Positions 1,123-44,930 of a DNA stretch of 64,000 nucleotides are shown here, piece by piece. The first letter of the stretch is position 1. Each line of letters begins with the position of its first letter. This DNA is from Polytrichum commune. Its lineage: Eukaryota; Streptophyta; Polytrichopsida; Polytrichales; Polytrichaceae. The stretch is taken from NCBI GenBank assembly GCA_950295325.1, contig OX485808.1, positions 40,570,527 to 40,634,526 of the forward strand, in the 5' to 3' direction. The position numbers and the translations under genes were made by a program. Below the pieces are notes generated by a model, which saw only the letters and a list, made by a program, of their open reading frames with translations, was not told the DNA's origin and did no database searches.

Positions 1123-1183
1123 CTAGGCAACTTACCCTTGGAGCAAGAGATGTTTGGATTCATCCCCCGATGGTCGCCAATTA

Positions 1184-7190: not shown

Positions 7191-8031
7191 GGTACCTAGT
7201 TGATTCGGCATGGGAGTTGTTACACACTCCTTAGCGGAAATCGACTTCCATGACCACAACCCTACTGTCTTAATCAATCAACACCCTTTGTGGGATGTAG
7301 GTTAGCACGCAGTTTGGCACCGTAACCCGGCTTTCGGTTCGCCCCGCATCGCCAGTTCTGCTAACCAAAAATGGCCCACTTCGAGCTCTCATTCTGTGTC
7401 AGGTTTCAACTAACGAACCCTAGCGGCCTGTGTGTATGTTTGACAAATTTCATGTGACGTTGAACTTGAAATCCAAAGTGTCACGTGACGTTTTCAAAAT
7501 CAATATTGTATGTCAATTGACATCTACATTTTATTCCTGAATGTCACCTCAATTTATAGTACTGAGGTAGCACGTGTCATTTCCATTTCTAGTGTGTCAA
7601 TTGACGTGCGGTTTTTTTCTTCACAAGCCACAGTACGTGTCAATTTCTAGATTGTGCGTGTCAATTGACGTGCATTTTTTTTTGTGCAAATTTTTGCGTG
7701 TCAAAAGAGAAAAACTTGCAAAAACTTTGTCAAACATATACGCTGCTAGCGGCTTACCTATTTAAAGTTTGAGAATATGTCGAGGGTGTTACACCCCCGA
7801 TGCCCCTAATCATTTGCTTTACCTGATAACAGTTCACGAGCTCCAGCTATCATGAGGGAAACTTCGGAGTGAACCAAGTACTAGATGGTACGATTAGTCT
7901 TTCGCCCCGGTACCCAAGTATGACGAACGATTTACACGTCAGGATCGCTACGAGTTACCACCAGAGTTTCATCTGGCTTCGCCCTGCTCAGGCATAGTTC
8001 ACCATATTTCGGGTCCTAACAGGTTTGCTCA
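7191..8031 (-). pseudogene. Fragment of nuclear 26S rRNA gene, antisense, split by a MITE
   Basis: Two blocks read as the reverse complement of plant 26S rRNA. 7195-7419 holds phrases such as CGCCAGTTCTGCTAACC and AAAATGGCCCACTT. 7746-8030 holds ACCTATTTAAAGTTTGAGAA, TTCGGAGTGAACC and GGCATAGTTCACCAT. In 26S rRNA these blocks are neighbours, so a single ~520-base fragment was interrupted by the 318-bp MITE. Many substitutions show it is a decayed copy, not a working rDNA unit. It lies between the two Harbinger genes. The identification is from memory of the 26S sequence. Confidence 0.85.
7428..7745. mobile_element. hAT-like MITE inserted in the rDNA fragment
   Basis: It is bounded by 20-bp inverted repeats with three mismatches, CTGTGTGTATGTTTGACAAA on the left and CAGCGTATATGTTTGACAAA read inward from the right. 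A perfect 8-bp duplication CTAGCGGC flanks it (7420-7427 and 7746-7753). An 8-bp duplication points to hAT. The inside repeats TGTCAATTGACGTGC-like phrases and codes for nothing. Confidence 0.85.
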
Positions 8032-8095
8032 CAGTCAAACATTTCACAGAAAATCAAGCCATGCGTTTATTGAAAAATTGTTGGCACATGTTATT

Positions 8096-9616: not shown

Positions 9617-9790
9617 AGTCTCTGCTGGAGCCTGCCTGCCTGGGGCTCCATTCGGAAGTTGCTGGGAAGGCAGCTGGCTTCACCCAGCTGCCGCTAATGT
9701 GGCAGGAGCCACGGCAAGCCTAGGTCGAACCCTAGCCTGTGGCCGGGTAAGCCCTGCCCCTAGTGTGGTATGGGCCTCAGTTTGTCGGCT

Positions 9791-10084
9791 AAAATTTATG
9801 GTCGATCTCGCAGACTTCGATGTCAGAAATTTTCTTGTCAGAGCCGCAATTATAGAAAAGAAAAGATAACGCCTGTACTATGTGTACCGGCGTGAACGTG
9901 AGCCCGTTAACCCTATATTGATCTCGGGGATCCGAGATGCCTATTTCCTCGTCTACGACGCGCACCTGCCTTGGATCGCGTGCCGCCAACCTCGGCCCAA
10001 CTTCATAGGGACGGGAGCGCCGCAATTATACTTTCGATGCATAGGGTCACATTAGAAAAGAAGATTTTTGTTTTGTTTTCTTAC
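9791..10084. other. Non-coding stretch, nothing recognised
   Basis: No supported gene or repeat was seen. A short open frame on - (9789-10025) has no recognisable domain. Confidence 0.4.
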
Positions 10085-10331
10085 CACAGGCTCTCGTATG
10101 TGTTTTAGGCGTGCTCTGTAGCCTAGTTTCGACATCGGTGAGGTCAATGAGGGCCTGAAGATTGTTAGACTGCATCAACAACGGCTCAAACTCTAGCTGA
10201 TTCATTCTTAAGAAGGCAGACATCTGTCACAGGTAAGCTAACCAGCTTCGAGATTTCATTTACCACATAGAAAGGGAAATACGTTGGTTTTGGCACGGGA
10301 GTTGGTGTAATCCACGGATGCTGTAGTTCCT
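10085..10331. repeat. Partial unit of the ~280-bp tandem repeat, left of element A
   Basis: It carries the same phrases as the array at 30599-31549 (for example TTTACCACATAGAAAGG and GTTGGTGTAATC) in the same orientation. It stops mid-unit at TCCT, where element A begins. The unit resumes after element A with TCCT at 30595. The host repeat was therefore split by the insertion. Confidence 0.85.
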
Positions 10332-10360
10332 AACACTATATTCGGTAATTGGAGACTTTT
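10332..10360. repeat. Left terminal inverted repeat of element A
   Basis: It begins AACACTATATTCGG and ends GGAGACTTTT. It pairs with 30566-30594 and matches the left end of element B at 48727-48755. The 4-bp duplication TCCT precedes it. Confidence 0.9.
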
Positions 10361-10736
10361 TGTTGATTATGAGACTATATAAGGATGCGCATTTCAAAAT
10401 TGGACCAGTAATGACGACTAAAAATCCCATATGTATAATGGTATGCTACTATTATTATACATAAAGGCATGGAAGTGAACAAAAATGTGAGGCATACATG
10501 AAAATAGTTGCGTATGAAATGACAACTCGTTATGAATGGAAGGGAAGGTGCGAAGAATGAATGGAAGTTTAATGAATTAATTGGGATTGAAATACAATTA
10601 TAATGGAAATACCATCAATGTCTTGAGTAACTTGGAATAGCATACTAGAAAGTAAGCACTTAAATATGTTCTACACCTAAGCCCATTTAGGGAGTCCGTC
10701 CCACTAGTACGCTTCTAGTCACACTAGTCCGACCCA

Positions 10737-11689
10737 CTATTTTTTTTTTGCGGCTAAGTCCTTTTTTTTGGCGGCCTCCATGGCTCTAAAAATCTCAGGC
10801 CCACGACTGTATCCTTGTGTGTTGCCTGGACAGGAATATGTGTCGTTCTTGCATGTTTCAGGACGCGCTCCCGAATTGTACGAGGTGGTATTATAAGTAG
10901 AATACGAGGGCGTTTGCGAAAGGGAACGTCTTGCGCTTCTCCGGAGGGCCAGACAACGATTGGACTCGGAAGATGCGGCCTTGAGGGCGTGCCTATCCAA
11001 GGAGGACGTGGAGGAGGGCCGGGCACCAAGCGAGCGGGTAGCCACCTGCGAAACAACGTCATAGGAAGATAAGAATAGGAATGGAGTGGGAAAAATAATG
11101 AGGGCGGTTTGGGATGGGCGCTCGTAACGAGAACGGCACGCACACGGAAGACAAGCAAAACAAAAGCGGGAAAGGGGTTTAGGGTTGAGGAGGGCACCTT
11201 GGCTGTGGGGACGTCCATGCGGGGAACGGTAGGAACGAGGGGGGCGTCGACGGGAGCATCCGGAGCCAATGGAACTATTGCACTGTTGGATGGCGGGGGG
11301 GAGTCGAGGCGTGGAGGAACGGAGTCGGCGGGGGAGGTGTGGCAACGGGGGCCTTCCATGCGGAGACGCCGGCTCGGCCCACGACGAGCGACGGCGTCGT
11401 CCCTCGAGGGTGAGAGGTGTCCCAAACGAACGAGCGTCCGTTTCTCCTTGGAGAGGGGGGAGGGCGACGGGGCGTACGCGCGGGGGACAAGTGCTGGGGG
11501 CGGGCTGTTGACGACGCCGTCGTCGATGCCGACGTCGCGGGAGTAATCCACGGCCGAGGCCGCGTCGACCGCCGAGAAGTGGTAGAGGGATGGCATTTGG
11601 AAGTCCGTGACGTCGCGGGAAGGGGATGCGGGGAGCGAGAGGGGACGGGAAGAGCCGTTGACCACAGGGGCGTCGCATATGGGGGCAGA
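10737..11689 (-). CDS. Small downstream frame of element A (two exons), unknown function
   Basis: Exon 1 is about 11198-11689 (acceptor CCATAG|TC, donor AAG|GTGCCC). Exon 2 is 10737-11045 (acceptor TTTCGCAG|GTGG). The join is in frame, and the same structure is seen in element B (49037-49933), which is the main support. Conserved stretches are SAVDAASAVDYS near the start and SxSQTxSYSTY and QGYSRGPEIFRAMEA near the end. It is Pro/Ser-rich and GC-rich, with a Lys-rich tail. No ATG precedes the first acceptor, so an upstream exon is missing from this model. It could be an alternative 3' part of the large gene, whose own stop lies just upstream. Confidence 0.5.
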
Positions 11690-12095
11690 CTATGGGCAAG
11701 AACAAGAACAACAACAATCACAACAACAAAAGACATCCAAAAACGGGGCAAGCATTAGATATGTGAACCACATGATAACAAGCAAAGACATGGAGGCATT
11801 TCAAATCAATTTATTGAGTTTGGCGAGCCTCATGATGCTCTTATATACATTATCGCGGGGGCTTAGCGCCGCATTGCCGAAGGGGTTGGACCTAACAAAA
11901 AATGGGATGCTACCGGCGTGGAGCACGAGCCTTCTAAGGTAGGGGGCTAGCCTATCGACCAAAAAGGTGTCTTGCCTATCGCCGGTCCAAGTGTCCGGGA
12001 AGATGACGTTGCCCGGGGGGTTCAACACGCTCTTGGTGGGACTGTCGTCGATGAGGAGGGTGTTCTCAGGAGTCGGCCACCACCCGTGGGGCGTC

Positions 12096-14259
12096 TGTGA
12101 GCCCAAAAGGGTGCCCACATTTAGTCTTAGACCCTTGAAACGTTAGTTGATGCACTTTGAAGTAGCATGTTACTTCACAAAAATATAAAAAGAGTGAAAT
12201 GTTAGTCTTAGAAGTACCATGTTGTAAGAGGCTAGGATGTGAGTTGTTATTGTGTTTTTACCTTCGGAAGGATTTGAGTGAATGAGGATAGGTAAGGAGA
12301 ACTTGGATTGAGTAGTTAGTGAGTAGGCTAGTACAAATGGATGGAGACAACCAAAGTGACTCAAGAGGCAAGTGCATTCGAATTGGGATGAATGGAGGAT
12401 CACATGGAGCGCACAAGTGGACCACCTCATCATGGCCACTTAATGGGGAAGGCCCAAGGAAGAATGCAAGGTGGAGGATAAGCAAATTCTCAAAGCACCA
12501 ATCAAATCACGAGTTAAGCATCGTGGTTTGAATTAAGTGGTGAGCGACGATTTGGGAAAGTAAGGGGAGAAAGTTATGGCGGCGGAAAGCGAAGGAGGCT
12601 AAGTTTGGGTTGAAGCATCCCAAGTTTGGTAAAGTGTGGTAGGTAGAAAGCCAAGGCTAGTTAAATGTTCGAATTAGGATCCTTGTTGATCATTTGAGGG
12701 AGGAAGACTTAGAAGATAGGATTGGCGCCTACTAAGTAGGAGGAAATCTCAAGGGCTTATCGTGAGCCTTGAGGGTGCTCACCCCCTCAAGCTTACTATA
12801 TAATCCCTCATTCTTCCCTCACTCATCCTCTCTTTCCTTTGTGCTCCAAGGCACCCCACGAGTTATAAGTGTGGGTGTGGGAAGCCATATTGGAGCACAT
12901 GTGTGTGCTTAGTTTTTAGTTTGAGAGCCAAGGCTTGTTAGCCTTGAAGAGGGCTTAACCTCTTGGTAGAATTAGTGTTGACGTGAAGGATTTTAAAGTT
13001 AATTCATGATTCCAATTTGTGGTACTTTAAGTTCATGTTTTGAATACACGTGGTTGCAAGTTCCATGTTTAAGAGTTGAGCACTTGATGTTGTGATGAGT
13101 GCAAAAATATACTTGTGTGGATTAGTTAGTCTTAGTGAAGTTAGGAAATTCTCTCTCCCCCTCTCCTCTCTAGGATTTTAGGATTTTAGGATTAGAGAAG
13201 AATTGTGTGATTAGAAAGGGGTTGTTAGTAGAATTAGGGAAATTAGGTAGGAAGATTAGTTAAGGGCTTGAATAATTAGTGAGGTAGTTGGGGATTACAA
13301 CTACAAAGTTGTGGGTTCATGAAGGAGCTGGGTTTATGAAGAAGCTGGGTTTGTTTAGTTAGAAAGTAAAGAGCTGGGTTTATGAAGGACCTGGGTTTGT
13401 TTAGTTAGAAAGTAAAGAGCTGGGTTTATGAAGGACCTGGGTTTGTTTAATTAGAAGCTAAGGAGCTGGGTTCATGAAGGAGCTGGGTTTATGAAGGAGC
13501 TGGGTTTATGAAGGAGCTAGGTTTATGTAATTAGAAAGTAAAGAGATGGGTTCATGAAGGAGCTTAGTAGATAGCCTACCTAATTAGCTCATAGACAAGT
13601 AGTTAGTTACATTATGCTAGTTAGTGTTATGGTGGCTTTCACAAGTAAATGTATTTGAGATTGACTATAGAGAATAGTGTTTTTTTTAACACTTGCATCC
13701 TCTCTTTAAAAATAAATCACGTGCACAAATTAATGGAGAATGTGGAGCACTCTCGCGATGGCAAGACAAAGGAAGCAAAGACCAAAGGTGCGAGGGAGAG
13801 ATTGACATAAGTCACATAAATATTTCTTAATACTTAAAGGCTTATGTACGGTATGGAGACACCAAGTGAGACCTCTTATAGTAGCGATACGGAATACACA
13901 AGTGATAGTTCAAGTGGTAGTATAGAGTCAACGGCACGGACTCCATTTAGGAGAGGGATATCCTTAAGGGCTTGTGTAGCTAAAGCGGCCGGATGGACGT
14001 TAGAAGCAAACAAAGACAAAATAGCACCCGAGCATAAGGAGGTTAAAATAACATAGTTAACTTGTGCATTCTCCACATACGTATTGAAATTGTACATTGA
14101 GTTGTTAAAAGTGAAATTCCAGTTAAATCCAAGACCACTTGAAGGGTGAACCTTGCACTATGGACTCATCCAAGTCCAAATCCAATACCGCGGAGGAATG
14201 TGAGCCCAAACCCACTACTCGGACTACGGACGCTTAAGGGTGGGGGGTTTGGCCTCACA
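12096..14259 (+). mobile_element. Solo LTR (copy 2) inserted in the element A HAD exon
   Basis: It starts TGTGAGCCCAAAAGGG and ends GGCCTCACA. A perfect 5-bp duplication GCGTC flanks it (12091-12095 and 14260-14264) and no internal retrotransposon sequence is present, so it arose by LTR-LTR recombination. Its first ~1.2 kb is nearly identical to copy 1, so the insertion is young and later than element A. It keeps a ~330-bp block with a small frame that copy 1 lacks. Confidence 0.95.
13844..14056 (+). CDS. Small LTR-encoded frame (LTR copy 2)
   Basis: This 70-codon frame carries the motif RGISLRACVAKAAGWTLE after a Ser/Thr-rich N-terminus (TEYTSDSSSGSIESTAR). The same motif in the same LTR position occurs at 40736-40924 and on - at 27572-27745, in LTRs that otherwise differ a lot. 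Copies 2 and 4 also share the start context CTTATGT followed by a second ATGGA. It ends 203 bases before the LTR end. The function is unknown; it may be a retrotransposon accessory peptide or a leader frame. Confidence 0.5.
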   Translation: MYGMETPSETSYSSDTEYTSDSSSGSIESTARTPFRRGISLRACVAKAAGWTLEANKDKIAPEHKEVKIT

Positions 14260-15360
14260 GCGTCCCCTGCAGACGGGGGACGCCTTGCCAGAGTCTTGAG
14301 CGGAGGACCTTGAGGAACTGTTGTCCTCCGCCTCGACCGCCAAACTTGGGCACCGGTTGGCCCTTCTCGTCGAGCAGCTCGTCGCATTCCTCTTGGCCGA
14401 GGACGAGGCAAGGGCGTGGGAGATCACGGAACAAGAAGTCGACGATGGGCTCCGTGTTGTCCATGACCATGGAGCTCCACACAACGACGTGGGCGAACTC
14501 GACCACCTCGCGAAGGAAGTCGCGCAGGCCGGGACGGGCGCGGACAGCCTTGCGGTTTATGAGGGTGTCGAGCTCGCCGTCATAGTCCCTTTCGTCGGGG
14601 TGACGGAAGGGACGCGTGGGAACCCTGGGGATGTGTTGGGTGTGACACAAGACCCCGTTGAGGTCAAAAACTATGAAAGGCTTGTTCCGGGTTCGAGGTC
14701 CACTGGTCGAGGGGTTGCGACCTATCTCCGGGGGGTCCTGTGATGAACAACGCGACTAGTTTAATTCTATGATCCAATAAAGAAATTGTTGCGTTGAAAA
14801 TAAAGACGATGCATTATGGGAAAAGAGGAGGAAGTGAGGAGGGTGCAAGGAGAATGTTCAGAGGGGCACAATTGCGAACGACCGTTCGTGAATGAAGGCT
14901 GCGGGGCGGTGCGCATCATTTACGAACGCTCGTTCGTGAGCGCGGATGCATGCATATACGAACGCTCGTTCGCGAAGGATGTCAAGACGGGGTCGCACAG
15001 TTTTACGAACGAGCGTTCGTGAGTGAGGTGTGCATGCAAAGAATGCAAGGACGCGCAAGAGCACAGACAACACAAGACGCGAGAATATGCAATAAGTTGA
15101 GGGGATGCGAGCAGAGATCGTCTGCTCATATATTAATTCGGTGAATATGTACATTTGTCTCGCGTGATAATCTATCACAATTTCCTAAGGAAAAATGCAG
15201 TGTCTTACAAAATTGATCGGCCCAAGCGATCACATAGAAAAATGCTCGCGCGGGCAACGTGATGTCGATGGAGTTGAAGCGCCAAGAACACAACGCGGGG
15301 GGTTAGTGATATTACGAACGCGCGTTCGTAAAACATTTGGCATTCTCAAAGATGAGTTAC

Positions 15361-16764
15361 CTCTTTGATTAACGAGCGCGCGTTCGTAATATCCATTGGG
15401 GAAGCAACCTCTGGATCCATGACCTCCGCTGGACGCTCCTCCTGAGACGACTGGGTCTGTTGGATGAGCTCCACGTCGTCGTCCCCGCCCAGGTCGAGTC
15501 TCTCCATGCGGACATCCTCCATGTGCGCGGACGGATGTCCTTCCTGGTCAGGGCTCTCCACGACCATCCCACGCGGACCTGCCGAGTCATTAGGGCTCCC
15601 CTGCGTTTCCTCCACAATGACCATGTCAGTGTGTTGCGCAGTGTCATCGCCCCGCCTATCTAGAACCCTTGGGACGACGGTGAAAGAGGCCGTGTCGGTG
15701 TCTGTGGGCAGTCCTACCCTTGAAGGGGGAGGGGTGAGGACTGCCGGACCTGAAGATTCACGAACGCGCGTTCGTAAATCTTCGTCCTCCCTTAGCGCCG
15801 CCGTGATTGCATCGTGGGAGGTTGAGGCGGCCGCCGTCACTTCCGGGGGCAATGGACTTCCCGCCGGCGTTGGGTGTGGCACTGTTTGGTGGGAAGGCCC
15901 TCCTTGGTACATGACTGGAGGTGGGGGTTGTGAGGGGTATCCTCCAGGGGGGAAGGGGTAAGGTTGCTGGACCGGCGCAGAGAGGCTCTGCATGTTTTTG
16001 AGCATCTCGAAGATGGCGTCGGTTTTGGCCGCTGAATCCCTCAGCTGCTCTTGCAGCCTGGCCAGATGCTTCGCGCTCTCCTCCTGTGCTGCAGCCATCT
16101 CCTCCTTCATCTTCACCTCCAGCTTGGCGTTGAGCTCAACGACGGTGAGTGCCTCCTCCTTCACCCGCTTGTTCTTGTCGTAGTCCACGCCAAGCTCGGC
16201 CATGATGTCCATGTCCCCCTCGTCCTCGTCCGAGACCTCGATGATTGCTCCCGGCGGCAACTCCACGTATGGAGTCTTCTTCATCCTCCTCCTCGTGTTG
16301 CGGAAGAGGTCCAAAGATGGCCGCGAGCGTTGGTCGAGGATGTCCAGGGTTTCCATCTTCGGAACCACGGCTGGCCTTGGAGACTGTGACGTCGAGCATC
16401 CGCCTGGCGTTCCGAAAGGCTCCGCAAGAGATGTTCTCGCCGGGAGGACGTCCAGGGTTGTCCCCGCGGACGACCCGGTGTAACCACCCGGCGTCCCTTG
16501 AGGGTCGGGAAGATCCGTTGTTGGCGGCAAGATCCGAAGTGGGGGTACGTCGAAGGACTGCAAAATGGCGTCCACGTTGGCGGAGGGGGTGGGCTCGTCG
16601 TCCTCAGAATCGTGGAATGGTATGCTCTCGTCGGCAGGCATACTGGAGTCCATCCTGGGGACAGAGATGTCCTTGAGGTCCATCGTCGACGCCTTCGCAC
16701 GGTGGATCTTGAAGTTTTCTTCGTCGATAGCGTCAACGAATGTGTTGACTACGAGACCCATCAT
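15361..16764 (-). pseudogene. Element A large gene, exon 3: proline-rich and coiled-coil region
   Basis: The acceptor TTCTCACAG precedes MMGLVVNTFVDAIDEENF. A KTPYVELPPGAIIEVSDEDE block is conserved in B and contains a SUMO-interaction-like hydrophobic core followed by acids. Next come a heptad-rich helix (about EALTVVELNAKLEVKMKEEM onward) and a Pro/Gln-rich tract. Two element palindromes fall inside this exon, at 15759-15776 (encoding RTRVR) and 15371-15388 (near the exon end). The donor GAG|GTAAC is conserved. Unspliced reading would stop at 15346. Confidence 0.6.
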
Positions 16765-16986
16765 CTGTGAGAAGAGAGCAATAAGGTCAGAAAATACGAA
16801 TGCACGTTCGTAAACATCAACGCGTAGCGTGCAACGAGTTTCAAGCATTACATTACGAAGGGGTTATGTTTACGAACGAGCGTTCGTAAACATGAATGCG
16901 TCACGTGTAGCGACTGTGAAACAATACATTGAGAAGTTGGTTAACTTTACGAACGAGCGTTCGTAAATGGAGTCTGGACAACTTAC

Positions 16987-18312
16987 CATAGCCGCATACA
17001 TGAATTTGGAGCCTCCACATACGTTGTATACCGTCTCTCCACTTATAACCAGACTCTGCAATACAGAGACGTAGAACTCCATCATGAGTTCCATGGCGGG
17101 GAAGACGGTGTAGAGGGTCTCTTGCAGCAGATCCTTGGGAGGGGGATGCGGGATGCTGTAGATTTTTTTGAACGTGTTGTTTGCCTTGATAGGCGGTCGC
17201 CCATCCCTTAGCTCATTGTACGTCAAGAAAATCAGGCTGACCGCTCCCACCTGCTTGTTGCCCCTGGCCTCGTTGATGGCCACGATCCCCTCCGTCTTCG
17301 CTGGCACGTACGTGCTGTGGAAGATGCTGTACTCGAATTTGATCTTCTGCTCGTACAGCTCTGTGACCACAGACAGCTTCTCTTGTTCGACTATCCACAG
17401 CCAAACGTGTGGTTCCCTCATGGCCGGCGATTTGAACTCCATGAACTTGGCCATGAAAGGGTTGTAGAAGGGAATGTCCTTCCCCCCCTGCCTTGACGCA
17501 CCCGGGATCCCCTTGAAATCGATGAGGGCAAAAGGGCAACCCCGTCGATCCTCCCTCACCTCGGCCCTGCTGATGGTGCTGTCCCACTTGGAAAATGTGA
17601 CCCTCTCCACGCCGGAGGTGATCACGCAAAACCTTGCCACTCCTTCGAATGTGGCGTTCTTCTTCCTCTCCAAAAATTTTAAGTACAGCATAACCTCATG
17701 GGGATCCGTGTCGGTTTTCTTAGTCCTTTTGTTCCCCTTCAACTTCAAAACCGAGGCATGCTCCTTGACCAGACTGCGCATGGAGGCTCCGTTGATGTTG
17801 TAGTCGACCTTTAACATTTGCCATTGCGGCCAGATGATGTCGCCGTCGACTTCAAAGATTCTGTACTCTAGTACGAGTACGCTCAACTCTCTCATGGCTG
17901 CAGTCTTCAGCTTCCGGTGGTCACACCACTCTTTGATAGAGTACGTGCCGGGCTTGTGCTTTGGCCTCTTCAAAAAGATCTTGGGATAGGGAAGGGTTCT
18001 TCCCACGGTGTTCCCAAGAACATGAATCGCACACCTCTTCAGCTCTGACTCCGTCAATCCCTAGAGGTGTCTAAAGAACTCCCTCAGTAGTGGGGGCGCT
18101 TCACCGGTTTTTTCCGTGCTGTACTTCTCCTCCGTGTCGGGGTTGACCAAATCGCCCGAGCTGTGTGCATAAAAAAACTGGGTCCACAAGTCCCATGTGT
18201 CCCTGTTGCAGCAGATCAGTCTGAGCTCACCCTTTAGCTCAAGCACAGACTTTGTGGTGGTGGACTTCATATCGATGGAAGAGAACTTGTCTACCATCGC
18301 GTCGCAAAATGC
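16987..18312 (-). pseudogene. Element A large gene, exon 2: conserved region of unknown function
   Basis: It is 442 codons, aligned end to end with 52786-54105. Conserved blocks include RTLPYPKIFLKRPKH, EPHVWLWIVEQE, STYVPAKTEGI, NKQVGAV and GETVYNV. A TAG at 18061-18063 replaces a Gln codon (CAA in B). I recognise no domain. Confidence 0.65.
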
Positions 18313-18428
18313 CTGCACAAAACAAGATGTCAGTATTGCACATAATACGAACGCACGTTCGTAAAACATGTCAGTAATTGATGTTTTCGTGAGTCCAACA
18401 CTTTACGAACGTTCATTCGTAAACTCAC

Positions 18429-19721
18429 CTTCCATTGAGGAGACTGGTTCTTGGCGTTCTCCCTCTCCTTTGGTGGGCATCCGTGTGCCACCCAGACGTC
18501 TCTCACAGCCACTATGTTAGCCGCCCACGAAGCCTCGAACGCCTTGATTTTGTTCCCCGAGTTCAGGAAGGTTGAAATCTTGCGCAGCTTGTCCCAATCG
18601 TCCGACCAGACCAAGAACGCCTTCCAGTACCGCAGGTCAGCCTTCAGCTCGTGCTGGAAGTTGTCGTCCTTGAGGATCTGTTGCGACGCCTCCAAGCTAT
18701 GCTGACCATCTATAATCCAGAATTCTCCATTCTGGATTTGCGGCCAATCCATCTCTGTCGGTCGGGATGTTAGCCCCTTGGGCATGACGCAAACGGTCTG
18801 CCTATCCCACTTTACGTTGTTCATGAGGTTGTTGATCTGCCACTTCACCCCACCCCTCTCGCGAGACCTTACCACCCACTTGTTGGGGGACTTTTCGCAC
18901 TTGAAGCAGTCCACGTTGAACGTGAAGTGGCGCCCTATGGGCCAACAATCCTTTGAGTAATTATTGAAATCTCATAGGATCTTTGTTGCCTTCACTGCAT
19001 CTGGATTCTCACCCTTCTTTAAAGGGGTTGGCATCAGGGGAGGAGAGCTCACCTTAGCGCCCTCTGTTACCCCAGACCTCTCCATTTCGTCCCGGGACCT
19101 CTTCGATGGCGTGGAATGTCGGCTGGGACCCTCCGTCACCCTGCTCGCGGAAGGCACCGGCCTGGGTGCACTTCTCGATCCTCCTGCCCCGGATGCTGAT
19201 GGTTTTCGTGGGCTCTTCTTCTTCTTGTTGGCTTCGGCGACCGCGCTATTGTACTTGGAGATATTCAAGGAAAGCGCGGCCAACTTCCTTGCTGTCCAGT
19301 ACGAGCTCAGGGCGTACTTCGTGAACAAGTCCTTGAGGAAGTGTTTGGCATCAGCCACTACGTTATTTTCTGCGTATGTGTAGGAGAAACTATGTCTCCT
19401 GTACTCTAACAGGAGGTTAATGTGATCCTTCTTATTTTTCATGTCTAAAATCACATAATCTCCTTGTGCCTCAATTGATTCTACTTCCCAAGTCTTCATC
19501 TGCACCCATTGCTCTGGCTGGTCCGGCGTCGTTTCCAGCTCGTAGGTGAAGCGAAGACAGAAAAGACCGTCTGATGTCTTCTTTGGCAGTGCCGTCCATT
19601 CCCCAATGAAGTCCTCCTTCGGGACATAATTATCGTTTCCGTTGGGGTCGGACACTGACTCTGGTAGCTGATCTATCTGCACTGCGAACATCTCAATGGC
19701 GCTCCTGCTCGGTCTAGCCAT
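18429..19721 (-). pseudogene. Element A large gene, exon 1: DGQH (ParB/DGQHR-like) region
   Basis: The exon begins MARPSRSAIEMFAV. The C-terminal half contains NGEFWIIDGQHSLEASQ followed by ISTFLNSGNKIKAFEASWAANI. This order, a DGQH box and then an Asn-rich F-x-N motif, resembles the ParB/DGQHR superfamily (DndB-like proteins). That link rests on motifs only. A low-complexity Ser/Pro/Arg linker precedes it. A TGA at 18972-18974 aligns with a Gln codon in element B. The donor is AAG|GTGAGT at 18428. Confidence 0.6.
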
Positions 19722-21274
19722 CTGCAGAGCACATAAACATTTAGTATTGTGTTTACGAACGAGCGTTCGTAATTGACAAGCAAATCATATATACTAATCA
19801 ATGAACGCTGGCTATGGGTACCCGTGAGGAGTTTTAATTATGTCTTCGCTGATTTCATTTACGAACGATCGTTCGTAAAGAATGTGGTTGCTAAGGTGTA
19901 TTTGACACAAGTTTACGAACGTGCGTTCGTATTGTTTGTAAACAAGTCCACGAGTTGTCCAGTGTTATCTAATTTCCACGAGGGTTGTTCGAATTTCCAT
20001 GAGCATCTTCTAAATAGGTGAATTAATACTTTAGTTCTTAATTACGAACGTGCGTTCGTAAATTATGCTACTTGGGAATGCAGACAATTACCATTAAGGG
20101 TTTGGGATATTATTATAGTTTGTGATTACGAACGTTCGTTCGTATTTTTGTATGTTTCATTTGGATTTGAGGATTTGAGGATGTACAGGGTATAGACGAA
20201 TATACGAACGTGCGTTCGTAAAAATGGAGGGTGAGGTGCGTATTTACGAACGCACGTTCGTATGTGTTTGTGGGGTAAGGCATGTTTTCACGCCACATTT
20301 ACGAACGAACGTTCGTAAATGTGGTCATCTGGGATTAGGAAATGGTATATTTATTTATATACATATATCCATACATATACATATACGTATATATGTTGTT
20401 ATGAATGTTGCGATCTGGCATTGTTCATGATCCTGCAACTCGTGATCAGATTGATGAAACACAAGTGAAAAATGGAATCAGAACAAAATTGCGAGTCAGT
20501 GATTGATAGTTCAGAATGAAGAGGAAAGTGTTATTTCATACAAAACATGCCATACCTCATAATGCAGAAAACAAATCACAAGGAATTCATCAAACAACAA
20601 TTTCAGATTGTGAAGGACTGATTTGTAAAGGAAACCTGTACTCACATTGAATTGTTGCACAGAAAACCTCCTGCCTCCTACTGAGAAATCCAGAAATCCT
20701 CACAAATGCACACCAAATTGTCTTTCAAAAGCGTTGAATTCGCTTTCAATTGCAATTTCACTTTGTCACACTCTCAAGCCTTCACAACTTATATGCAAAT
20801 CCTACACAAACCCTGATGTACACAACTCACAACCTTCCGAAATCTCAAGCTTTCTGAAACTCTCAAGATCTCAAGCTTTCCTACTCTCAAGCTCTCAAGC
20901 TTTCCAAAACTCTCAAGCTCTCAAGCTTTCTAAAACTCTCCACTTCTCAATCTTTCTAAAACTCAAGCTCTCAAGCTTTCTAAAACTCTAAACCTCTCAA
21001 GCTTTCTATAACTCTCAACCTCTCAAGCTTTCTATAACTCTCAACCTCTCAACCTTTCCTACTCTCAAGCTTTCCTATTCTCAAGGTTCTGACAACACAA
21101 CAAAACAACATTCACAATGAGGCTCTAAAATTGGCAAGGGCTTCGCCGCACCTAAGAGCTCCTCTCCCCCTCTGCTCCAAATGACAAATGAGGAGGAGAG
21201 AGAGGGGCGCGGGGAGGTAGTCGGCGCCGCTAGGGTTTCCAAGCGGCAGCCACGTGGCTAGTGGCCACTGGCTA

Positions 21275-21440
21275 GGGCTGGGATGGGGGAGGGGGATGGG
21301 ATGGGGATGGGGGGGAGGGGAGGGGGAGGGGAGGGGAGGGGATGAGGATGGGATGGGATGGGGAGGGGATGGGATGGGGGGGATGGGAGGGGATGAGGAT
21401 GGGATGGGAAGGGGAGGGGATGGGGATGAGGGGATACCAT
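21275..21440 (+). repeat. G-rich GGGATGGG minisatellite
   Basis: Runs of GGGATGGGATGGGG and GGGGAGGGGA repeat irregularly on +. The stretch has strong G-quadruplex potential. Element B has a purine-rich GAGCAAGAGAA array in the comparable position (57165-57520). Confidence 0.8.
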
Positions 21441-22368
21441 GGGGACATGGAGGGATGAGGGTTCAGGAAAAATGAAATAGGAGATGGGAGGAGCTTAGTT
21501 TAGGGACATAAATTTAACTTTCCGTATCCCCTTAGTACCTCGACATATGGATTCCTTGTAAACATATTTTAGAAAAGTATGTTCAAATAATTTGTATTTA
21601 ACAATTCATGTCATTTAGTAGGTTTTCGATGAAGAATCCACCCCCAAGATGCAAATGTCGTTTTCATGAACGAGACATCTTTAAAGTTCTTCAATGGTTC
21701 CTCAAATACATATTACATATATAAATGACTCAATTTGAATTGTGGAGAGGGGCTATCTGATTCTCCACAAGAGGTGGATGAAAATTCAATTTTCAATACG
21801 ATGTCATTAATTTAATGAGGTGTTAGCTTGAACCACCCTTAATATGATATTTAGTGCTAGATACTCTAAATACAAACGCATAGTACACTAAATATCAGTA
21901 ACCCTATGAAAGTAACTACTATTCATTGTGAACTCAAACACTTAATTTCAACTATAATGGTAATATGTGGATGTCGCATGCACAAATTTTGTGTAAGGAA
22001 ATTAATATGAAAAAAACAATTAACAATGATAAAAGCATAAAGGACATGGTAGTAGGAAATGTGGTGGCCCATTTAATATGTCCAACACTAATTATCAAAG
22101 AATTGAAATTTAGTGTTGACCATGATAGTATAACAACACTATATTATACAATCAAACACTAAATATCATATTTAGTGTAGTGTATTTTAGCCATGTGGTC
22201 GCATGTTTTGCTAGTAGTATCAATAATTGATAGTATGAGCTTCCCATAAATTAAGTTAGTGCGATATGGATTATTTAGGAGTCGATATTGTTTGTGTATA
22301 TAATGCATTGAAGTAACGATCTAAACCCTAAGCCCGCAAACCACATAGACAACTTTCACAAACTCTAT

Positions 22369-22402
22369 ACCCTAACCCCAAACCCTAAACCCTAAACCCT
22401 AC
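22369..22402 (-). repeat. Interstitial telomere-like run
   Basis: Several CCCTAAA units, some imperfect, occur in the spacer of element A. A TTTAGGG run lies in the spacer of element B (59825-59882). Confidence 0.8.
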
Positions 22403-23236
22403 ATCTTTTTATCTTACCAACCTTTCTTATATATGGCCATGTTGTGGTCTATGCGCATCATGTCAAAATGGTCTACGAATGTTGGTTCGATTGGAACTTG
22501 CCTTATTTGGGTCATAGCAACTATAATAATCTAGACTCATGCCAATAATTGTCATTTTGATATAAAACATTGGTTTAGGGGGTGAAGAGTGAATTTTGAA
22601 ATGCTAGCACTTTCACCTTAATAGTTTTGAGTGCAATTTGATCACAAAATACACACTTAGTCTTATTATAACATGAATGGTTTAAGACTTCAACTTAAAT
22701 CAACAGTTTAAGCTATGGTCATGCACATACTTCTTGTTGCAAATAATACAAATATATAATTGTAAGTGCATACTATTGTATGCACCATTCCAAATTAGTT
22801 ATCCATTTCCACACCATGGTGGACCTAAAGTGAATTTCCAATAGGACGTCAAGTCATTTAATTAGGTGTCAACTTGAACTAACGATCGAATACTAGTGCA
22901 TTAAACTTTAATTTTCACCAATGATGAATTGCAACAATGAGTCATATTAATATGGGGCGATGTTTGGTGAGCCTCCAGTTCCAAATGTCCTCAATCTACC
23001 TAGCACAAGCCACTATGGATTAAGCAACTTTTTATTGGTATTCATGCACTTGGTGACCATATTACAAGCATTTTTTTTATGTGAATCATATGATACCTAC
23101 AATTTTAGGGGATTCCACAATATGTTCTTAGCCACTTTTACCTCATTGTGTGTGTGAATATATATATCACTTAGACCTTCATCAATTCACTTGGACTTCA
23201 CACCTTAGTCGCAAATAATTTAATACTCAATGTTAA

Positions 23237-23321
23237 CCCACAACCCATATATATATAATATAATAACCCATATATAAAATAGTAAAATATAAATTATACA
23301 TATATATACATATATATACAT

Positions 23322-23385
<64 letters not shown>

Positions 23386-23425
23386 ACATATATATATATA
23401 TATACATATAGACATATAGACATAT
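23237..23425. repeat. CA/TA microsatellite
   Basis: Mixed ATATAC, ACACAC and TATATA runs. Long open frames on - here are simple-repeat artefacts. Confidence 0.9.
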
Positions 23426-23797
23426 TTTCGTGCGACCTTGATAACAACTAAGGTATGCGACGGATTTATAGATTTACAATATGTTGCGTGCACGCAACAC
23501 ATGTTCCATACATAATGCTATTTATATATTGCGCATGGATGGAATGGCATATTGTTAGGTCAAAGTAGGCGGCGGGAATCCGCTTTTTAAATAGCATCCA
23601 AGGGATTTTGAACCATCGGGGGAAAGGTACTTAAAGCTCTTCCCCCCACAGAAGAGCTCTTTTCTGCGGCACATCCAAGTGTGCGCTCCACAGACCTGAC
23701 TGGAACGCGCTCAAACCATTTTCTTGTGCGCCAATCCCACACCTCCTAGGTCCACTACAGACTGCACATATCCGTATATACCGCCGCAAATACCGGA

Positions 23798-25107
23798 CGT
23801 TTACGAACGCACGTTCGTAAACGTGAGTTGGTAGCACATGCAGAAGAGGTACATAGAGATGATGTGAATTGTTTACGAACGTGTGTTCGTAAGTTGTTTA
23901 CAACCGTACTCGACATTGAGTTACTTATAGACAGAACTAGGCACGAAAATTGTGTCGATTATATACGAACGTACGTTCGTATATCTGCCTTCAAGACCCA
24001 GACGCGCATGAGTTCCCGTGTAACCGTTTTCTCCAACGGAACATATGATGATGGGATATTTACGAACGTGCGTTCGTAAATATCACCTGGGATTATTTTT
24101 CAAGAATCCATAATTATTCCTTAATTTATACACTTCTGTGCATTGGCCACGTTAACAATATGGAAGTTAAATACGAACGCTCGTTCGTATTTCTCACTAC
24201 CATTTATGTCCACAGAGAATTACGTTTTCCAATTTTACGAACGCACGTTCGTAAATACCACCTGTCCACCGTCCACGCATCCACCAACAGACCTGTTAAC
24301 GCAAGCATGTGTGGAGGACTACACCATGTTTAGGATAGATACGAACGCTCGTTCGTATTTGGTACTACCATTTATGTCCACGGAGAATTATGTTTTTCAA
24401 TTTTACGAACGCACGTTCGTAAATACCACCTGTCCACCGTCCACGCATCCACCAACAGACCTGTTGACGCAAGCATGTGTAGAGGACTACACCGTGTTAA
24501 TGATAGATACGAACGCTCGTTCGTATCTGTTCAATCACGATTTTAGTGATAGATGTCGATTGTCATTTTCCACTGGATATTGAATTTCATGTATCCCTGT
24601 AACGTGGCTATAGATATCTCTATTCGGACGTGTCCAATCATTTTTTCCTAACACTGTCACGGCTGTAACATACATACGATCGGTCATATGCATCCGCCCC
24701 TATGTTTCGGCTGGAACTTACGAACGATCGTTCGTGAACATAAGCCATCAATTTCGGCTGTAGCTAACGAACGATCGTTCGTAAACTCTCGCCCATCAAA
24801 TACACGCCTCTCAAATATGATGCTTACTGCATGTGAATATAGTGGCAATTATATTTTTGGTGCTCTTATAATATGTCCCATTTAGATTTTATTATATATT
24901 GGGTTGATGTTTTCGTCCTCGCGTTCGTGAATATATGTGCTTGTGTTGTCCCTTGGTGGTGGAAAACCCTTCCAATGTTTTATTTGCGACTCCACCCAAA
25001 GCCCTTCATTGGTAATATATATCGGAATGGGGTTCCGTTGTGCAGGGACGTCTGAGTCCCGTGTAGGATTTGTATGACATGGGGATGTTGTCGAACGCAC
25101 GTTCGTC
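23798..25107. repeat. Dispersed palindromes, rightward-gene side of element A
   Basis: Twelve copies of TACGAACGNNCGTTCGTA or near variants start at 23802, 23874, 23964, 24061, 24172, 24236, 24340, 24404, 24508, 24719, 24766 and 25090. They occupy the leader region of the DUF7869-like gene. Within it 24172-24525 is a ~168-bp tandem duplication with two palindromes per unit. The cluster starts just after GCCGCAAAT (23783-23791), a block conserved at the same place in element B (61083-61091). Confidence 0.95.
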
Positions 25108-27571
25108 TTCATATGTGAGGTCCCTCAACGGTGTGTCGAGTGTTGGTTGTGATTTTTCAGCCATATATGTAGGCATATCTCGTATCCACTTTTGTATGCA
25201 TTGCGGTTGTTGATGTGTTGGTCATTTATTGGTGGTTTGTTTAGGTTGGATGGCGATGCACGTTGGATATAGTTCATTGGAGTTGTCCACAAAAGCTTCC
25301 TCTTCCGATGGTGACTGTGAACTATCTTCGGCATCGGCGGGTAATCATGGCATGGCAAATGCCATGGGTGGGTTTGTGGATGCATCCTCCCACGAATCAT
25401 TTGAAGCGCATGAACAATCTATACGTTCCGGGGATGACAATGATGACATTCCGTTATGTGCCGGTTTCGGTAGGGAGCAATGGGTGGGCCTTGATGTTGT
25501 TTTTTTCAACGATGTTGGTGTCCCGGTGGCAGATGGCATATGTAGAAACTCCGATCCCCGTGATTGTGTGGATGCCAACCCCCTTGGTCCCGATGATGTG
25601 GGTGTGTTCATCTTGAATTCTTTGCTTCCGCTTGACGTCCCGGTGACATGGAGATTTTCCTTGCGTCGATGGCCTCTTTGTCGGGTTCTCCATGACGGAG
25701 TAAGCTTGTTGGACCATGAGCGGCGCCATAAGCAAACGCAATTAGCTTTGTTGGCCAAAATACGTCCTCGCAAAGGCCTACGCAGATATGATTCTAACCG
25801 TGTGCCTCGTGGAGATAAAGAACGTCGACGGGATCGCATATTGGGAGACGAATCTATCCGTCTTGTGTCCGCCAAGGACTGTTGCGAGAGGAAATGTTGG
25901 CAATTTTTCCCGCGGGAGAAAATTAAGTCCCTACGTCAAGAGATGTGGCTTGCGGATTTCCGTATGAGATCGGCAAAGAAACTCGAGGTCTACAGAAATG
26001 TCCACATTGACACCCATGGGCATAAGGTGGTCACACTTGAGAATGTGGAAGTGTGTTGTACTGCGTGGTATACTATCCACGCCGTGTCAAAGTCTGACTT
26101 TTATAGGTTTCAAAAGTATTCATCGTTGGGTCGCCGTTCTCGATTTCATGGCAATTCGGGCACAAAGAAACCTAGGGAGGCTACACTCCAAGCCTCCGCG
26201 ACACTCTCCACCATCATAGTCCCATTGGCCGATGCAATGCCCCACAAGACGAGGACATTGTCGTCAGGGGAGAAAGTTGTACAAATGGTGTTGCCCACGG
26301 GTACAAAATGGAAGAACATATTAACGGACATCAATGAAGTGGGTCGCATAGCGGGATGTGGGCCCATTTCTTTGTCCAAGTTGAGTGTGATTAAAAACCA
26401 ACAGTTTGCCGAATACATTTTGAAGAGACCTGGGGACAAGTTCGCTAGGTGTACGACGTGTGAAAAATACAAAGGTCTTCGAGACGCCCACCCCATAGGC
26501 ACCGAATCCCACACTAGACACCAAACAAAATATATTGAACATGTCAACAACCAAGAGGCTCACCGTCAAGATTACTACAAGAACCGTGCTCTATCCATAA
26601 TGAGGCCTACAGAGGTTCTAACAATCATCCATGATAAAATGGACCACGCCAAAACCGCATGCCCTTGTTATGCACGCAAAATAAAGGCCACGGATGGTCT
26701 CTTCAAGTTGCCCGTATTTGTCATAGGTTTGTATTGAATCACAAATAATCTGTATTCAAATTCTCTCAAATTTTACTGGGTGTGTTTGCCAAATGTCCAA
26801 TTTCATACCTCCGTTTGGAGTTGTCGTTGTTATTGTTGTTGTTCAAACATCGTTTGTTTTTTTCCGCAGGGATGATTGTCCACGGCCATGGAGACGTAAA
26901 GTATGCCCATTATGGGTTGGATTTTTACCATGGCGATGCTAACCACACAGTGGGTTCATTTGCAAAACTCTTGCGCGATCTGGAGAAGCCGCCGTTACAT
27001 TCATCACGTGCATTTTTTGATGGTTGTGGAACGACACCCCTTTACGAAGCAGTGCTTGCGGGGAAGGAGGTTTGTATGTCGTCATTGCCAGAACCACCGG
27101 GAGAACCTATTTGTGCAAAACCATTGCCTCCAACTCTTCACGTTCAACTTGATAATTGCGCGAAAGACAACAAATGTCGATATGTATTTTGTTTTTGGTC
27201 ATTGCTCGTGGCGAAAGGAATCTTCAAGGAGGTGTTTGTGTCGTTTTTTATGGTGGGACATACACACGACGACATTGATGCATCATTCGGACGGTGGAGC
27301 ATGAAGTTGCATGAAGAAGATTTTCGAACCATACCTCTTCTTATGAAATCGTATATGGATTTGGACCATATGCCAGTAATTCCGCACATGATTGAGGAAG
27401 TACCAGATTTCAAGGCCTTCATCAAGTCATACATGTTGAAGGGAGGGGACTGTGAGGCCAAATCCACCACCCTTAAGCGTCCTAGTCCGGGTGATGGCTT
27501 TGAGAATCACATTCAATTCCTAATACCATAACATGAATTGCTATATGGTTCTCATGTTCAAGGCACTAACT

Positions 27572-27745
27572 TCATCTTAACTCCTTTGCTTTATTATTGT
27601 GAGCATCGTTGCTCGTAGTGGAATTCGATTTTTCAAGGGTCCAACCCGCGGCCTTGGCCACGCATGCCCTTAAAGAGATCCCTCTAGACTTCTTGATTTT
27701 TACTTCCTTAATCTTGTCCCTGCTAGGATCCTCCACAGTTCCCAT
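27572..27745 (-). CDS. Small LTR-encoded frame (LTR copy 3)
   Basis: 58 codons from the ATG at 27745. The motif RGISLRACVAKAAGWTLE is identical to copy 2, although the surrounding LTR is strongly diverged and the N-terminus differs. It ends 121 bases before the LTR 3' end. Confidence 0.5.
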   Translation of the reverse strand: MGTVEDPSRDKIKEVKIKKSRGISLRACVAKAAGWTLEKSNSTTSNDAHNNKAKELR

Positions 27746-28009
27746 TGATGGTGCACGTATTATATTCCAACCAAAGGTACGAGTGTTTAGAAACACTTAC
27801 TTCAATGGGTAACCATCCACACATTTGAAAGTCCCACACACGTCTACTTTCCTAGTAAATCCAACTCTACCTAAAACCAAGATGGCATGCAATAATCTAT
27901 CATGTCTATCAATCCTAAAAGGATTATCCTAACTACCACCCCCCTAGTAGTTTAACTAATTAGAGCTAATGAAATACTTAGGACCAAGCCAAATTATCTA
28001 ACCGCAGCC

Positions 28010-28535
28010 AAGCTGGTTGGCCTTAGGCCCAGCCGAATCCCTCCAGCAGTTAAATCTTCGCCTAGTCCAGCAGCTAAGCTGGTTGGTGGCCTTAGGCCCA
28101 GCCGAATCCCTCAACAGTTAAATCCTCCCTTAGCCCAGCAGCTCAGCTGGTTGTTGGCCTTAGGCCCAGCCGAAGCCCTCAGCAGTTAAATCCTCCCTTA
28201 GTCCAACAGCTAAGTTGGTTGGCCTTAGGCCCAGCCGAATCCCTCAGCAGTTAAATCCTCCCTTAGTCCAGCATCTCAACTGGTTGTTGGCCTTAAGCCC
28301 AGCCGAAACCCTCAGCAGTTAAATCTTCCCTTAGTCCAGCAGCTCAGTTGGTTGGCCTTAGGCCCAGCCGAATCCCTCCAGCAGTTACATCTTTGCTTAG
28401 TCCAGCAGCTCAGCTGGTTGTTGGCCTTAGGCCCAGCCGAAGCCCTCAGCAGTTAAATCCTCCCTTAGTCCAGCAGCTCAGCTGGTTGTTGGCCTTAGGC
28501 CCAGCCGAATCCTTCCAGCAGTTAAATCTTCGCCT
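28010..28535 (-). repeat. Tandem repeat inside LTR copy 3
   Basis: About eight units of 60-75 bp contain TTAGTCCAGCAGCTCAGCTGG and GGCCTTAGGCCCAGCCGAA. It occupies the same part of the LTR as the GAGCTGGG array of copies 1 and 2 but has a different sequence. Confidence 0.85.
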
Positions 28536-30565
28536 TGGTCCTAGCTACTTTCAATACAACCTCTCCCATCCCATCATCAAGGTTCTAATTCTTCCTCTTT
28601 TTTCTTCCTTTTGATGCTAAGTCATGCGCTAATCTAACACACTACTTTAACTAACTAACACCTAATCACTACATGCAAACTTAAGCTCAAGAACTCCCTC
28701 ACTTGGGGCCTTGAGAGAGAGCTTAATTAATCAACTCTACTAAAAACTAATGTCACACACACGCGCTCAAGCTCTTTAAGAGCTTGCTCCCCTTGAGAGC
28801 GCTTGATGGAGAGAGTCGCAAATGAGAGAAAGAACACCTTAAGTAGCAAAGAGGGAGAGAGGGAGAGAGGGAGAGAGAGGTGAGGATAGGGTGGGAGGAT
28901 TAGCACCTCCAATCACAATCCCTTAACCTTCACCTTCAAAGTAGGGACTAATCCCCTTCCACCAAGCTTCCTTCTTCCTAAACTAACAAAGTAGATCCAA
29001 AAGTGGGCATTTAATCCGCGGAGCTCACCTTGCCTCACCTTACCCTTTACTCACATAATCAAGGCATCCTCTTATTGAAATCAAACCTTGAAATAACTAC
29101 ACAACACATTCTAATGCCTAAACTTAAATCCAAACCACACTTCACTCTTTTTATGTTTTGTGAATAATCATAACACATCAAAGTCAAACTAAAATTGGTT
29201 TCGAAGAGTTAATCACCACATGTGGGCACCATTTTGGGCTCACAGGGACTGTTTGGTGGGGCATACCAAAGCACAATAATTCCAATTTTATATAAGGGAT
29301 GATGGTCTCCCAGCCATGCAATTCAAGCTTTTGTGCACATCTCCTAATTGGGGCCCGGATGATGGTATACTTGTATGGCGTCAAGACAATGATGGCAAAT
29401 GTTTGCTCCCGAATGGGGATCCAAAGCCTTGTAAACCCGACCCCATGAGGAATGGGCCGGAAATCATCAAAGGCATATCCGGATTCATTGAATATTGGAA
29501 AGAGTTGTGTGAGGAGGACATTACTAGACGTGTTAGAGATACTCATGAACCTTTGATTGCGTATTGGGATCGCATTCGTTCCGCCCTAATGACACTTGGT
29601 GGTGACACCCGTACAACTTTAATACAAGGATTTTGGCCACAAAGTCGTTTGACGTTTGTCGAGTCCGACACCATGGTTTTTAGCAATGGAGACGTTCGTG
29701 AAGAGTTCGCAATGGACGAGCATTACGTTGGCCCTGCCCGCAATCGACCGGCACCGTCGTTTCGTGTAGGTGTTGATTGCCATGAAGGTTATTTGGTCCT
29801 TGTACGAGCAGGGGATGAGGAACATCCCAAGCCAATTTGGTTGGTGAAAGCATTGTTTTCACCCAATTTTGTTCGAACTAGCCCCAACTTTCGTCAGATT
29901 GAGGTGGAATATTGTCGTCCAAGTACTAAAGACCAGAACGTACTACGCACTTATTTAGGTTGGGACACCAAAAAGAATTTTAAGTGGACAGTGGACTCAA
30001 CGTACACACCGTTTTGGATAAACACGGATACTATACTTTGTGCTTGGAAGCCGCGCAAAGGGTCCAAAACAGAAACAATGACCATCCCCCAAAAACATAT
30101 AGATTTTGCCAAAGACAACTTGGCACGTATTGCAGCGGCAGAAAATGACGCCGAGAATGGATATGAAGCGGAAGATGGAGATGTGTAAACATAACATATT
30201 AGGTGGGAGTTAATGGCGAAAAACATGGGCGATTAGTAGATTTGGTTTTTAATAGACTTAGTGGACTTGTCACACTCCATTGTGGTATACGTTTGGGATG
30301 TGCCATCTAAATTCATAAGAGCCTTACTTATGGAATGCGCACCCCAAACTCTATAATGACATAAACCATTTGTTTTTTTTGGAGTGGATTGTTATTTTCC
30401 ACATGGAGCTCATTTTTCATTTTAATTGAAATTCTCTATTTTTAGTAATAAGAATATCCTTTACGTACGAATTTTTAAATCGTCATGTTCTTGATATTTC
30501 CAATATTCCGTATGCCCACAATATTGGCATCCCAAACTATGGGCATATTTTATTTTGAGACTTTC

Positions 30566-30594
30566 AAAAGTCTCCAATTAACGAATATAGTGTT
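30566..30594. repeat. Right terminal inverted repeat of element A
   Basis: It reads AAAAGTCTCC through CGAATATAGTGTT and is the inverted match of 10332-10360 with one mismatch. The duplication TCCT follows. Confidence 0.9.
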
Positions 30595-30598
30595 TCCT

Positions 30599-32110: not shown

Positions 32111-32225
32111 ATTTAGGTCACGTCCAAAGAAGCGCGGAAGCTAGTTCTAAAGTCCCAGAGTCTACCTACGAACAACATAACATTGTTGATCAACGGAAGG
32201 CAGCGAACAGGTGGAAGACGCATGG

Positions 32226-37320: not shown

Positions 37321-37339
37321 TCCAAAATTTTGGTGAACT

Positions 37340-41524: not shown

Positions 41525-41532
41525 GTCGAAAG

Positions 41533-42766: not shown

Positions 42767-42797
<31 letters not shown>

Positions 42798-44927: not shown

Positions 44928-44930
44928 TGA

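Follow-up and report, generated by a model that had tools for sequence, protein, structure and literature searches.

VANDAL elements of Arabidopsis are Mutator-like transposons. In VANDAL21, binding of VANC21 to motifs that lie upstream and within introns is accompanied by a loss of methylation, and related VANDAL elements differ in this motif, which occurs in tandem repeats and evolves together with the VANC protein (PMC5735166, PMC10398659). Here, we describe a comparable arrangement in a 64,000-nt stretch of the genome of the plant Polytrichum commune (contig OX485808.1 of assembly GCA_950295325.1, positions 40,570,527-40,634,526; hereafter, the window), which contains a DNA transposon, element A, and the left part of a related one, element B. 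Both carry clusters of a palindrome upstream of two genes, one encoding a protein with a DGQH signature (the DGQH protein) and the other a DUF7869 protein, and the palindrome differs between element lineages together with the DGQH protein. We consider it likely that the palindromes are sites for a dimer of each element's own DGQH protein, which would control the element's own genes, most likely by de-repression.

Both systems comprise an element-encoded protein and a short non-coding motif, which lies within introns of the gene encoding the regulator, ahead of a second element gene and in tandem repeats, and in both cases the motif differs between related elements along with the protein. However, the VANDAL motif is a non-palindromic 9-mer in one orientation, whereas the site in the window is an 18-bp palindrome. 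The elements described here also differ in having other terminal repeats, a 4-bp target duplication, a DUF7869 gene and a regulator predicted to be ParB-like, and Pfam and Foldseek searches, which included no direct comparison to a VANC sequence, did not identify the DGQH regulator as VANC.

Another relevant protein is DndB of Salmonella, which binds TACG-N10-CGTA and lowers the expression of its own operon (PMC4507180). The DGQH signature and the presence of TACG-N10-CGTA in two of the three site classes found as DNA are likenesses to DndB/DGQHR proteins. However, the match to the profile TIGR03187 covers 24 residues and scores 11.1 bits against a cut-off of 58.85, in one of the five proteins scanned; the host is a plant, the third site class lacks TACG/CGTA, and no dnd genes were seen in the element. 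Common descent of the TACG-N10-CGTA site with that of DndB is possible but unproven, and this form may have been inherited from a DndB-like ancestor.

Many palindromic sites are also a feature of parS and NBS. The DGQH protein resembles the ParB-parS and Noc-NBS systems in its predicted ParB-type fold and in the many palindromic sites, but there is no significant sequence match, and the sites lie in transposon promoters and introns. In addition, DGQH replaces the GERR-type motif, the nucleotide-binding motif of ParB, which is a difference from the ParB CTPase clamp. En/Spm is a two-gene element whose second protein, TnpA, reads many short sites, and the present elements share this design, except that their sites are internal whereas the En/Spm repeats are subterminal. 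The terminal repeats of CACTA elements begin with CACTA and are accompanied by 2-3-bp target duplications, whereas the ends here read AACACTA and the duplications are of 4 bp (TCCT, CTTT and AAGT). As in DUF7869 transposons, a DUF7869 domain is present in element A (E 1.9e-36). Literature searches around DUF7869, DGQHR, eukaryotic ParB and self-encoded palindrome binding, judged partly by the titles of the best-ranked papers, gave no description of such a system.

Palindromic sites in the window and in the genome

The elements and their genes are located in the window as follows.

10332-30594, no strand assigned: element A, DNA transposon of 20.3 kb, with terminal inverted repeats at 10332-10360 and 30566-30594
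15346-19691, minus strand: DGQH gene of A (exon 1, 18435-19691; exon 2, 16981-18317; exon 3, about 15346-16740)
25214-30188, plus strand: DUF7869 gene of A, putative transposase gene, Pfam PF25273 over 26749-27528 (E 1.9e-36)
11799-14749, minus strand: NIF/SCP-like phosphatase gene of A, split by a long terminal repeat (LTR)-like insert at about 12092-14300
48727-64000, no strand assigned: left part of element B, left terminal repeat 48727-48755, duplication CTTT
51119-55497, minus strand: DGQH gene of B (exon 1, 54241-55497; exon 2, 52779-54108; exon 3, about 51119-52590)
62209-64000, plus strand: 5' part of the DUF7869 gene of B

The terminal inverted repeats of element A are 29 bp long (28/29 bases match) and are flanked by the 4-bp target duplication TCCT. 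The terminal repeat of element B is closely similar, and its right end lies at window coordinate 66037, past the window edge. The exon boundaries of the DGQH gene of A were derived from the alignment to B, and this copy contains in-frame stops. In element A, the DGQH and DUF7869 genes are divergently transcribed, and a further frame of the latter (29280-30188) is conserved in element B. The DUF7869 protein is a putative transposase.

The site of element A is TACGAACG-NN-CGTTCGTA, an 18-bp palindrome of which 20 copies are exact, and 28, 31 and 33 copies are found at up to one, two and three mismatches, respectively, in agreement with a preliminary description of this DNA that had counted about 32. 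No match at up to two mismatches was obtained in 100 shuffles of the window. The sites span 14873-25107, with one additional poor match at 11425 near the left end.

14873-15330: 5 palindromes in the 3' flank of the DGQH gene of A (14873, 14921, 14957, 15004 and 15313)
15371 and 15759: 2 palindromes inside the exon 3 open reading frame of the DGQH gene of A
16795-16965: 3 palindromes in intron 2 of the DGQH gene of A (16795, 16871 and 16948)
18346-18421: 2 palindromes in intron 1 of the DGQH gene of A (18346 and 18404)
19754-20317: 8 exact palindromes upstream of the DGQH gene of A
23802-25107: 12 palindromes upstream of the DUF7869 gene of A, partly in a 168-bp tandem repeat (24155-24490)
51086-56312: B-type palindromes upstream of the DGQH gene of B and in its introns 1 and 2, exon 3 (one inexact) and 3' flank
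61102-61935: B-type palindromes upstream of the DUF7869 gene of B, partly in a 95-bp tandem repeat

Thirty-one of the 33 sites of element A are located outside the DGQH exons, and the DUF7869 gene holds none. At up to three mismatches, no site occurs in the flanks of element A (1-10331 and 30595-48726; 28.5 kb, F-box gene included), in the LTR-like insert at 12092-14300, in DGQH exons 1 and 2, in the spacer at 20501-23700 or in 25251-30594, and the reported absence from the inserted LTR, the flanks, the F-box gene and the spacer core was thus confirmed.

The palindrome was also said to be confined to element A, which is not the case. Element B uses a two-base variant, TACGGACG-NN-CGTCCGTA (13 exact copies, 22 at up to three mismatches). 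A single exact A-type site is also present in B, at 55585, shortly upstream of the DGQH start; it is perhaps an ancestral or cross-talk site. Elements A and B place their sites alike, with none in exons 1 and 2 or in the spacer and with clusters in the two introns and ahead of each gene. Exact sites in the whole genome number 4,680 for the A-type, 1,382 for the B-type and 10,011 for a third class described below, and each reversed control gave none. The first 100 of the 4,680 exact A-type sites, all located on the sequence C1, form six clusters and two singletons. Pieces of all six clusters matched element genes, namely DGQH exon 1 in four, DGQH exon 3 in one and the start of the DUF7869 protein in one, the last by a short match (49 residues, E 2.6e-7). 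Together with the empty flanks in the window, this differs from the equal density outside elements that the preliminary description had named as an observation that would speak against it.

The conservation of sites was analysed in 11 pairs of copies, and the ranges given here are those of eight diverged pairs (synonymous distance from about 0.8 to saturation). In these pairs, identity is 90-96% for the arms, 36-80% for the two middle bases and 53-61% for the 25-nt flanks; in three pairs of the A clade, the corresponding counts are 130/144, 168/176 and 166/176 for the arms versus 228/399, 313/517 and 283/506 for the flanks. CpG dinucleotides were retained at 84-92% inside sites versus 42-56% elsewhere. 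The remaining three pairs (winA-L041, winA-L042 and winB-L012) are near-identical, with flanks at 94-99%, and provide little information because they are alike nearly everywhere. The claim that the arms are kept while the middle two bases drift was thus borne out between diverged copies, the arms do not change at the rate of their surroundings, and the interpretation as binding sites of a dimeric protein is supported. DGQH exons 1 and 2 are under purifying selection, with a ratio of nonsynonymous to synonymous substitution rates of 0.06-0.15 in 11 of 16 comparisons without saturation.

Site classes and clades of the DGQH protein

Metagenomic relatives of DGQH exon 2 (P0074-P0077, 37-39% identity) pointed to a third DGQH clade in this genome, and a motif-free palindrome search around its loci gave TTGGGTCG-NN-CGACCCAA. 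The following element was delimited.

C1:610757-628840: complete third element, target duplication AAGT, terminal repeat with the same first 13 bases

This element contains 17 and 11 TTGGGTCG sites in arrays upstream of its two genes and further sites in introns. Pieces of its DUF7869 gene are 54-84% identical to A, and its DGQH protein shows 34% (exon 1), 38% (exon 2) and 33% (part of exon 3) identity to that of A. The three elements are alike in the first 13 bases of the terminal repeats, the 4-bp duplications and the gene order; judging from these sequences, the third element is the same kind of element with a different site word. Between A and B, DGQH exons 1 and 2 are 44 and 54% identical and exon 3 gave no match, versus 78-89% for the DUF7869 exons. 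DGQH exon 1 identity between the lineages is thus 34-44%.

The dominant site class corresponds to the DGQH clade in all 52 records with a known clade. These loci represent a minor fraction of all copies: searches of the genome scored the best 92 of 1,058, 85 of 1,292 and 90 of 1,238 candidates, and copy numbers are lower bounds. All seven A-clade records, three of which (L061-L063) were picked from palindrome clusters and four by protein, contain TACGAACG and lack exact sites of the two other classes. TACGGACG is present in 32 of 32 B-clade records (189 exact B-type versus 28 A-type sites), which include the window's own element B (L011), and the 13 records of the third clade, comprising 11 loci and two pieces (L083 and L084) of one element, all hold TTGGGTCG and neither of the other classes.

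The site class of metagenomic proteins was decoded from their peptides, because open frames run on through neighbouring sites. Among 83 proteins, 13 were decoded as GA, 19 as AA, 1 as GC and 3 as ambiguous within xC, and 47 were undecided. The GA proteins are all at least 62% identical to B and the AA proteins all at most 55%, and none was both GA and AA. When CG-NN-CG was the sole assumption, 111 proteins yielded 75 hits in 3,833 residues, versus 10.5 expected from shuffles, although some hits are double-counted and some are due to chance (e.g. P0011, P0023 'TYVRK'). This decoding recovered TTGGGTCG and added TTCGGTCG (P0095 and P0099), TTCGGGCG (P0102 and P0104) and a weak candidate, TTGGGCCG, from P0105 alone. 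Seven site classes were thus obtained, three as DNA in this genome (TACGAACG, TACGGACG and TTGGGTCG) and four from metagenomic proteins (TACGGCCG, TTCGGTCG, TTCGGGCG and TTGGGCCG). They may be summarised by the scaffold T-W-S-G-R-N-C-G around two free bases, and the general pattern is written TACGNACG. No exact site of TTCGGTCG, a fourth class of the same design, occurs in this genome.

In the tree, AA is on one side, and P0005 (GC) and P0008 (xC) fall in one nested group; in the exon 2 tree, the xC proteins P0030 and P0037 are in different places. L039, which is a neighbour of P0030, has 10 GGAC sites and a minority GGCC site; single-site decoding can therefore mislead. The clade of P0012 was not found in this genome, where the best match is 66% identical and in B-clade loci. 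Stretches with a single site were also present in viral contigs (5 for TACGGCCG, 7 for TACGAACG and 4 for TACGGACG) and were taken as background.

Residues D369, G370, Q371 and H372 are near-invariant across 27 sequences. In the predicted model of DGQH exon 1, a linker of low confidence connects an N-terminal domain rich in beta structure to a second domain, for which the five best Foldseek matches are all Noc/ParB (probability 0.98-1.00, E 7e-3 to 7e-2); exon 1 is predicted to carry a ParB/sulfiredoxin-like domain with the DGQH signature. Scans of the DGQH protein against Pfam, NCBIfam and PADLOC gave sub-threshold matches only, among them DUF6551 in 12 of 27 members. Against solved structures, exon 1 gave only weak interleukin-2 matches to its N-terminal part in one search and none in the other, and a DGQH piece had no match in phage and plasmid records. 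A weak YEATS match (E 0.017, 3 of 27 relatives) was seen in the beta-rich N-terminal domain (residues 66-109 of window:54244-55497), which is possibly a histone-reader fold. In element B, exons 2 and 3 matched no Pfam family, and the matches of exon 1 were all sub-threshold. The window copy of exon 2 likewise gave no Pfam family, and there was one weak match among 38 members. The fold search with exon 2 returned mainly methyltransferases (E at least 0.12), tentatively suggesting a methyltransferase-like fold, and its sequence and predicted helices point to a putative helix-turn-helix.

Interpretation and alternatives

The lineages have terminal repeats and a comparatively well conserved DUF7869 protein in common but differ in the site, and the DGQH protein is their most divergent part; we therefore consider it probable that the DGQH protein binds the palindromes. 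The sites lie in promoters and introns and not at the ends; therefore, their role would be in regulation and not in cutting. In the mechanism that we propose, a DGQH protein dimer would bind the arrays upstream of both divergent genes as well as the intronic and 3'-flanking sites of its own gene, and the bound protein would recognise the element and control its expression. The most likely form of this control would be sequence-specific de-repression (anti-silencing), as by the VANC proteins of VANDAL elements, and if binding is granted, we are inclined to prefer de-repression to repression on this analogy. Each lineage would have its own main site, with protein and site changing together; this points to self-labelling, in which the sites of an element can be read by its own protein.

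Alternatively, the DGQH protein may bind the sites as a plain transcriptional auto-repressor that keeps expression low, like DndB on its Salmonella operon. We regard this as rather unlikely, but not negligible: promoter repression would account for the sites upstream of both genes but needs none in introns or in the 3' flank, and thirty is a large number of sites for an operator. The exact fit of TACGAACG-NN-CGTTCGTA and TACGGACG-NN-CGTCCGTA to the DndB formula TACG-N10-CGTA agrees with this alternative, as does a weak DGQHR profile match (TIGR03187, E 0.24), but the TTGGGTCG site is without TACG/CGTA, and the resemblance to DndB may be due to chance. Binding by the DUF7869 protein, the putative transposase, to the palindromes as transposition sites, like TnpA of En/Spm, is very improbable. 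The same element does encode this protein, with 12 sites directly upstream of the gene, but there are no clusters near the ends (one poor match in 10332-14799 and none in 25251-30594), and the DUF7869 protein and the terminal repeats vary less than the DGQH protein across the three elements, which nevertheless differ in the palindrome.

Slightly less probable still is that the sites act at the RNA level, in splicing or in folding, or serve as motifs for replication or recombination by the host. The site sequence tracks the DGQH clade within one host genome, which a host factor would not explain, and the 2-nt middle is too short for the loop of an RNA hairpin; sites do occur in both introns, some near splice sites, but the majority are upstream of genes or in the 3' flank. 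The least probable explanation is that the palindromes are functionless repeats spread by tandem duplication and gene conversion, as the location of some sites in the 168-, 135- and 95-bp tandem repeats might indicate, because in diverged pairs the arms are conserved far above the flanks and middle bases and CpGs are preferentially kept in the sites (84-92 versus 42-56%).

Several observations weigh against binding and de-repression by the DGQH protein. The pairing is not perfect: 28 of the 32 B-clade records retain exactly one exact A-type site, L039 contains one exact TACGGCCG site, hybrid sites are present in L039, L040 and L044, and the metagenomic protein P0044 decodes as a hybrid. The trees contain few independent switches (AA versus GA, the nested GC group and the deep split to TTGGGTCG), and kinship inflates the counts. 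The NIF phosphatase diverges too (58-60%), so that divergence alone fails to single out the DGQH protein, and the conservation figures use alignable sites only (e.g. 9/16 and 11/16), which biases them toward conserved ones. As for the fold, the best Foldseek E value is 7e-3, with none at or below 0.001, the model is of moderate quality (mean predicted local distance difference test score 69, predicted template modelling score 0.41), and no sequence search found the link of the DGQH domain to ParB. Finally, we infer binding, dimerisation and the direction of regulation, and de-repression is proposed by analogy.

As a tentative and broader proposal, to which we give somewhat less than even credence, these elements may represent a plant DNA transposon superfamily in which a regulator with a bacterial-type ParB/DndB fold, joined to a methyltransferase-like domain in one protein, would read a self/non-self palindrome code (T-W-S-G-R-N-C-G, two free bases and the mirror image). 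Lineages would switch code and protein together, and sub-families would coexist without cross-regulation. If true, this would be a further, independent case of transposons recognising themselves by a private DNA word, based on a prokaryote-like fold. Three natural site/protein pairs present as DNA in one genome, together with four decoded classes, would make the recognition code and the evolution of self-recognition directly testable.

Other features of the elements and their surroundings

A NIF/SCP-type phosphatase gene is common to all three lineages (A, 11799-14749; B, 50029-50808; L084, C1:626675-627379), with identities of 58-60% between A and B and 41% between B and the third element, and is therefore a long-term passenger. 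The LTR-like insert that splits the phosphatase gene of A (12092-14300) has a second copy outside A (1184-3215); the two contain identical blocks (100% over 300 nt) and are probably recent insertions. In the left flank of element A, a DDE transposase of the DDE_Tnp_4 family (8096-9679, E 1.4e-34), presumably of the Harbinger type, was found. The region at 32190-34049 beside element A, with F-box and phloem protein 2 (PP2) matches, is the clearest host gene of the window. Plant-type TTTAGGG telomeres are present at both ends of C1, one end of C3 is without TTTAGGG, and the start of C6 consists of N. Three B-type DGQH exons on C6 (40434780, 40516209 and 40624770), one of them in the window, lie within 190 kb and are 100% identical in protein sequence, which suggests recent local transposition or segmental duplication.

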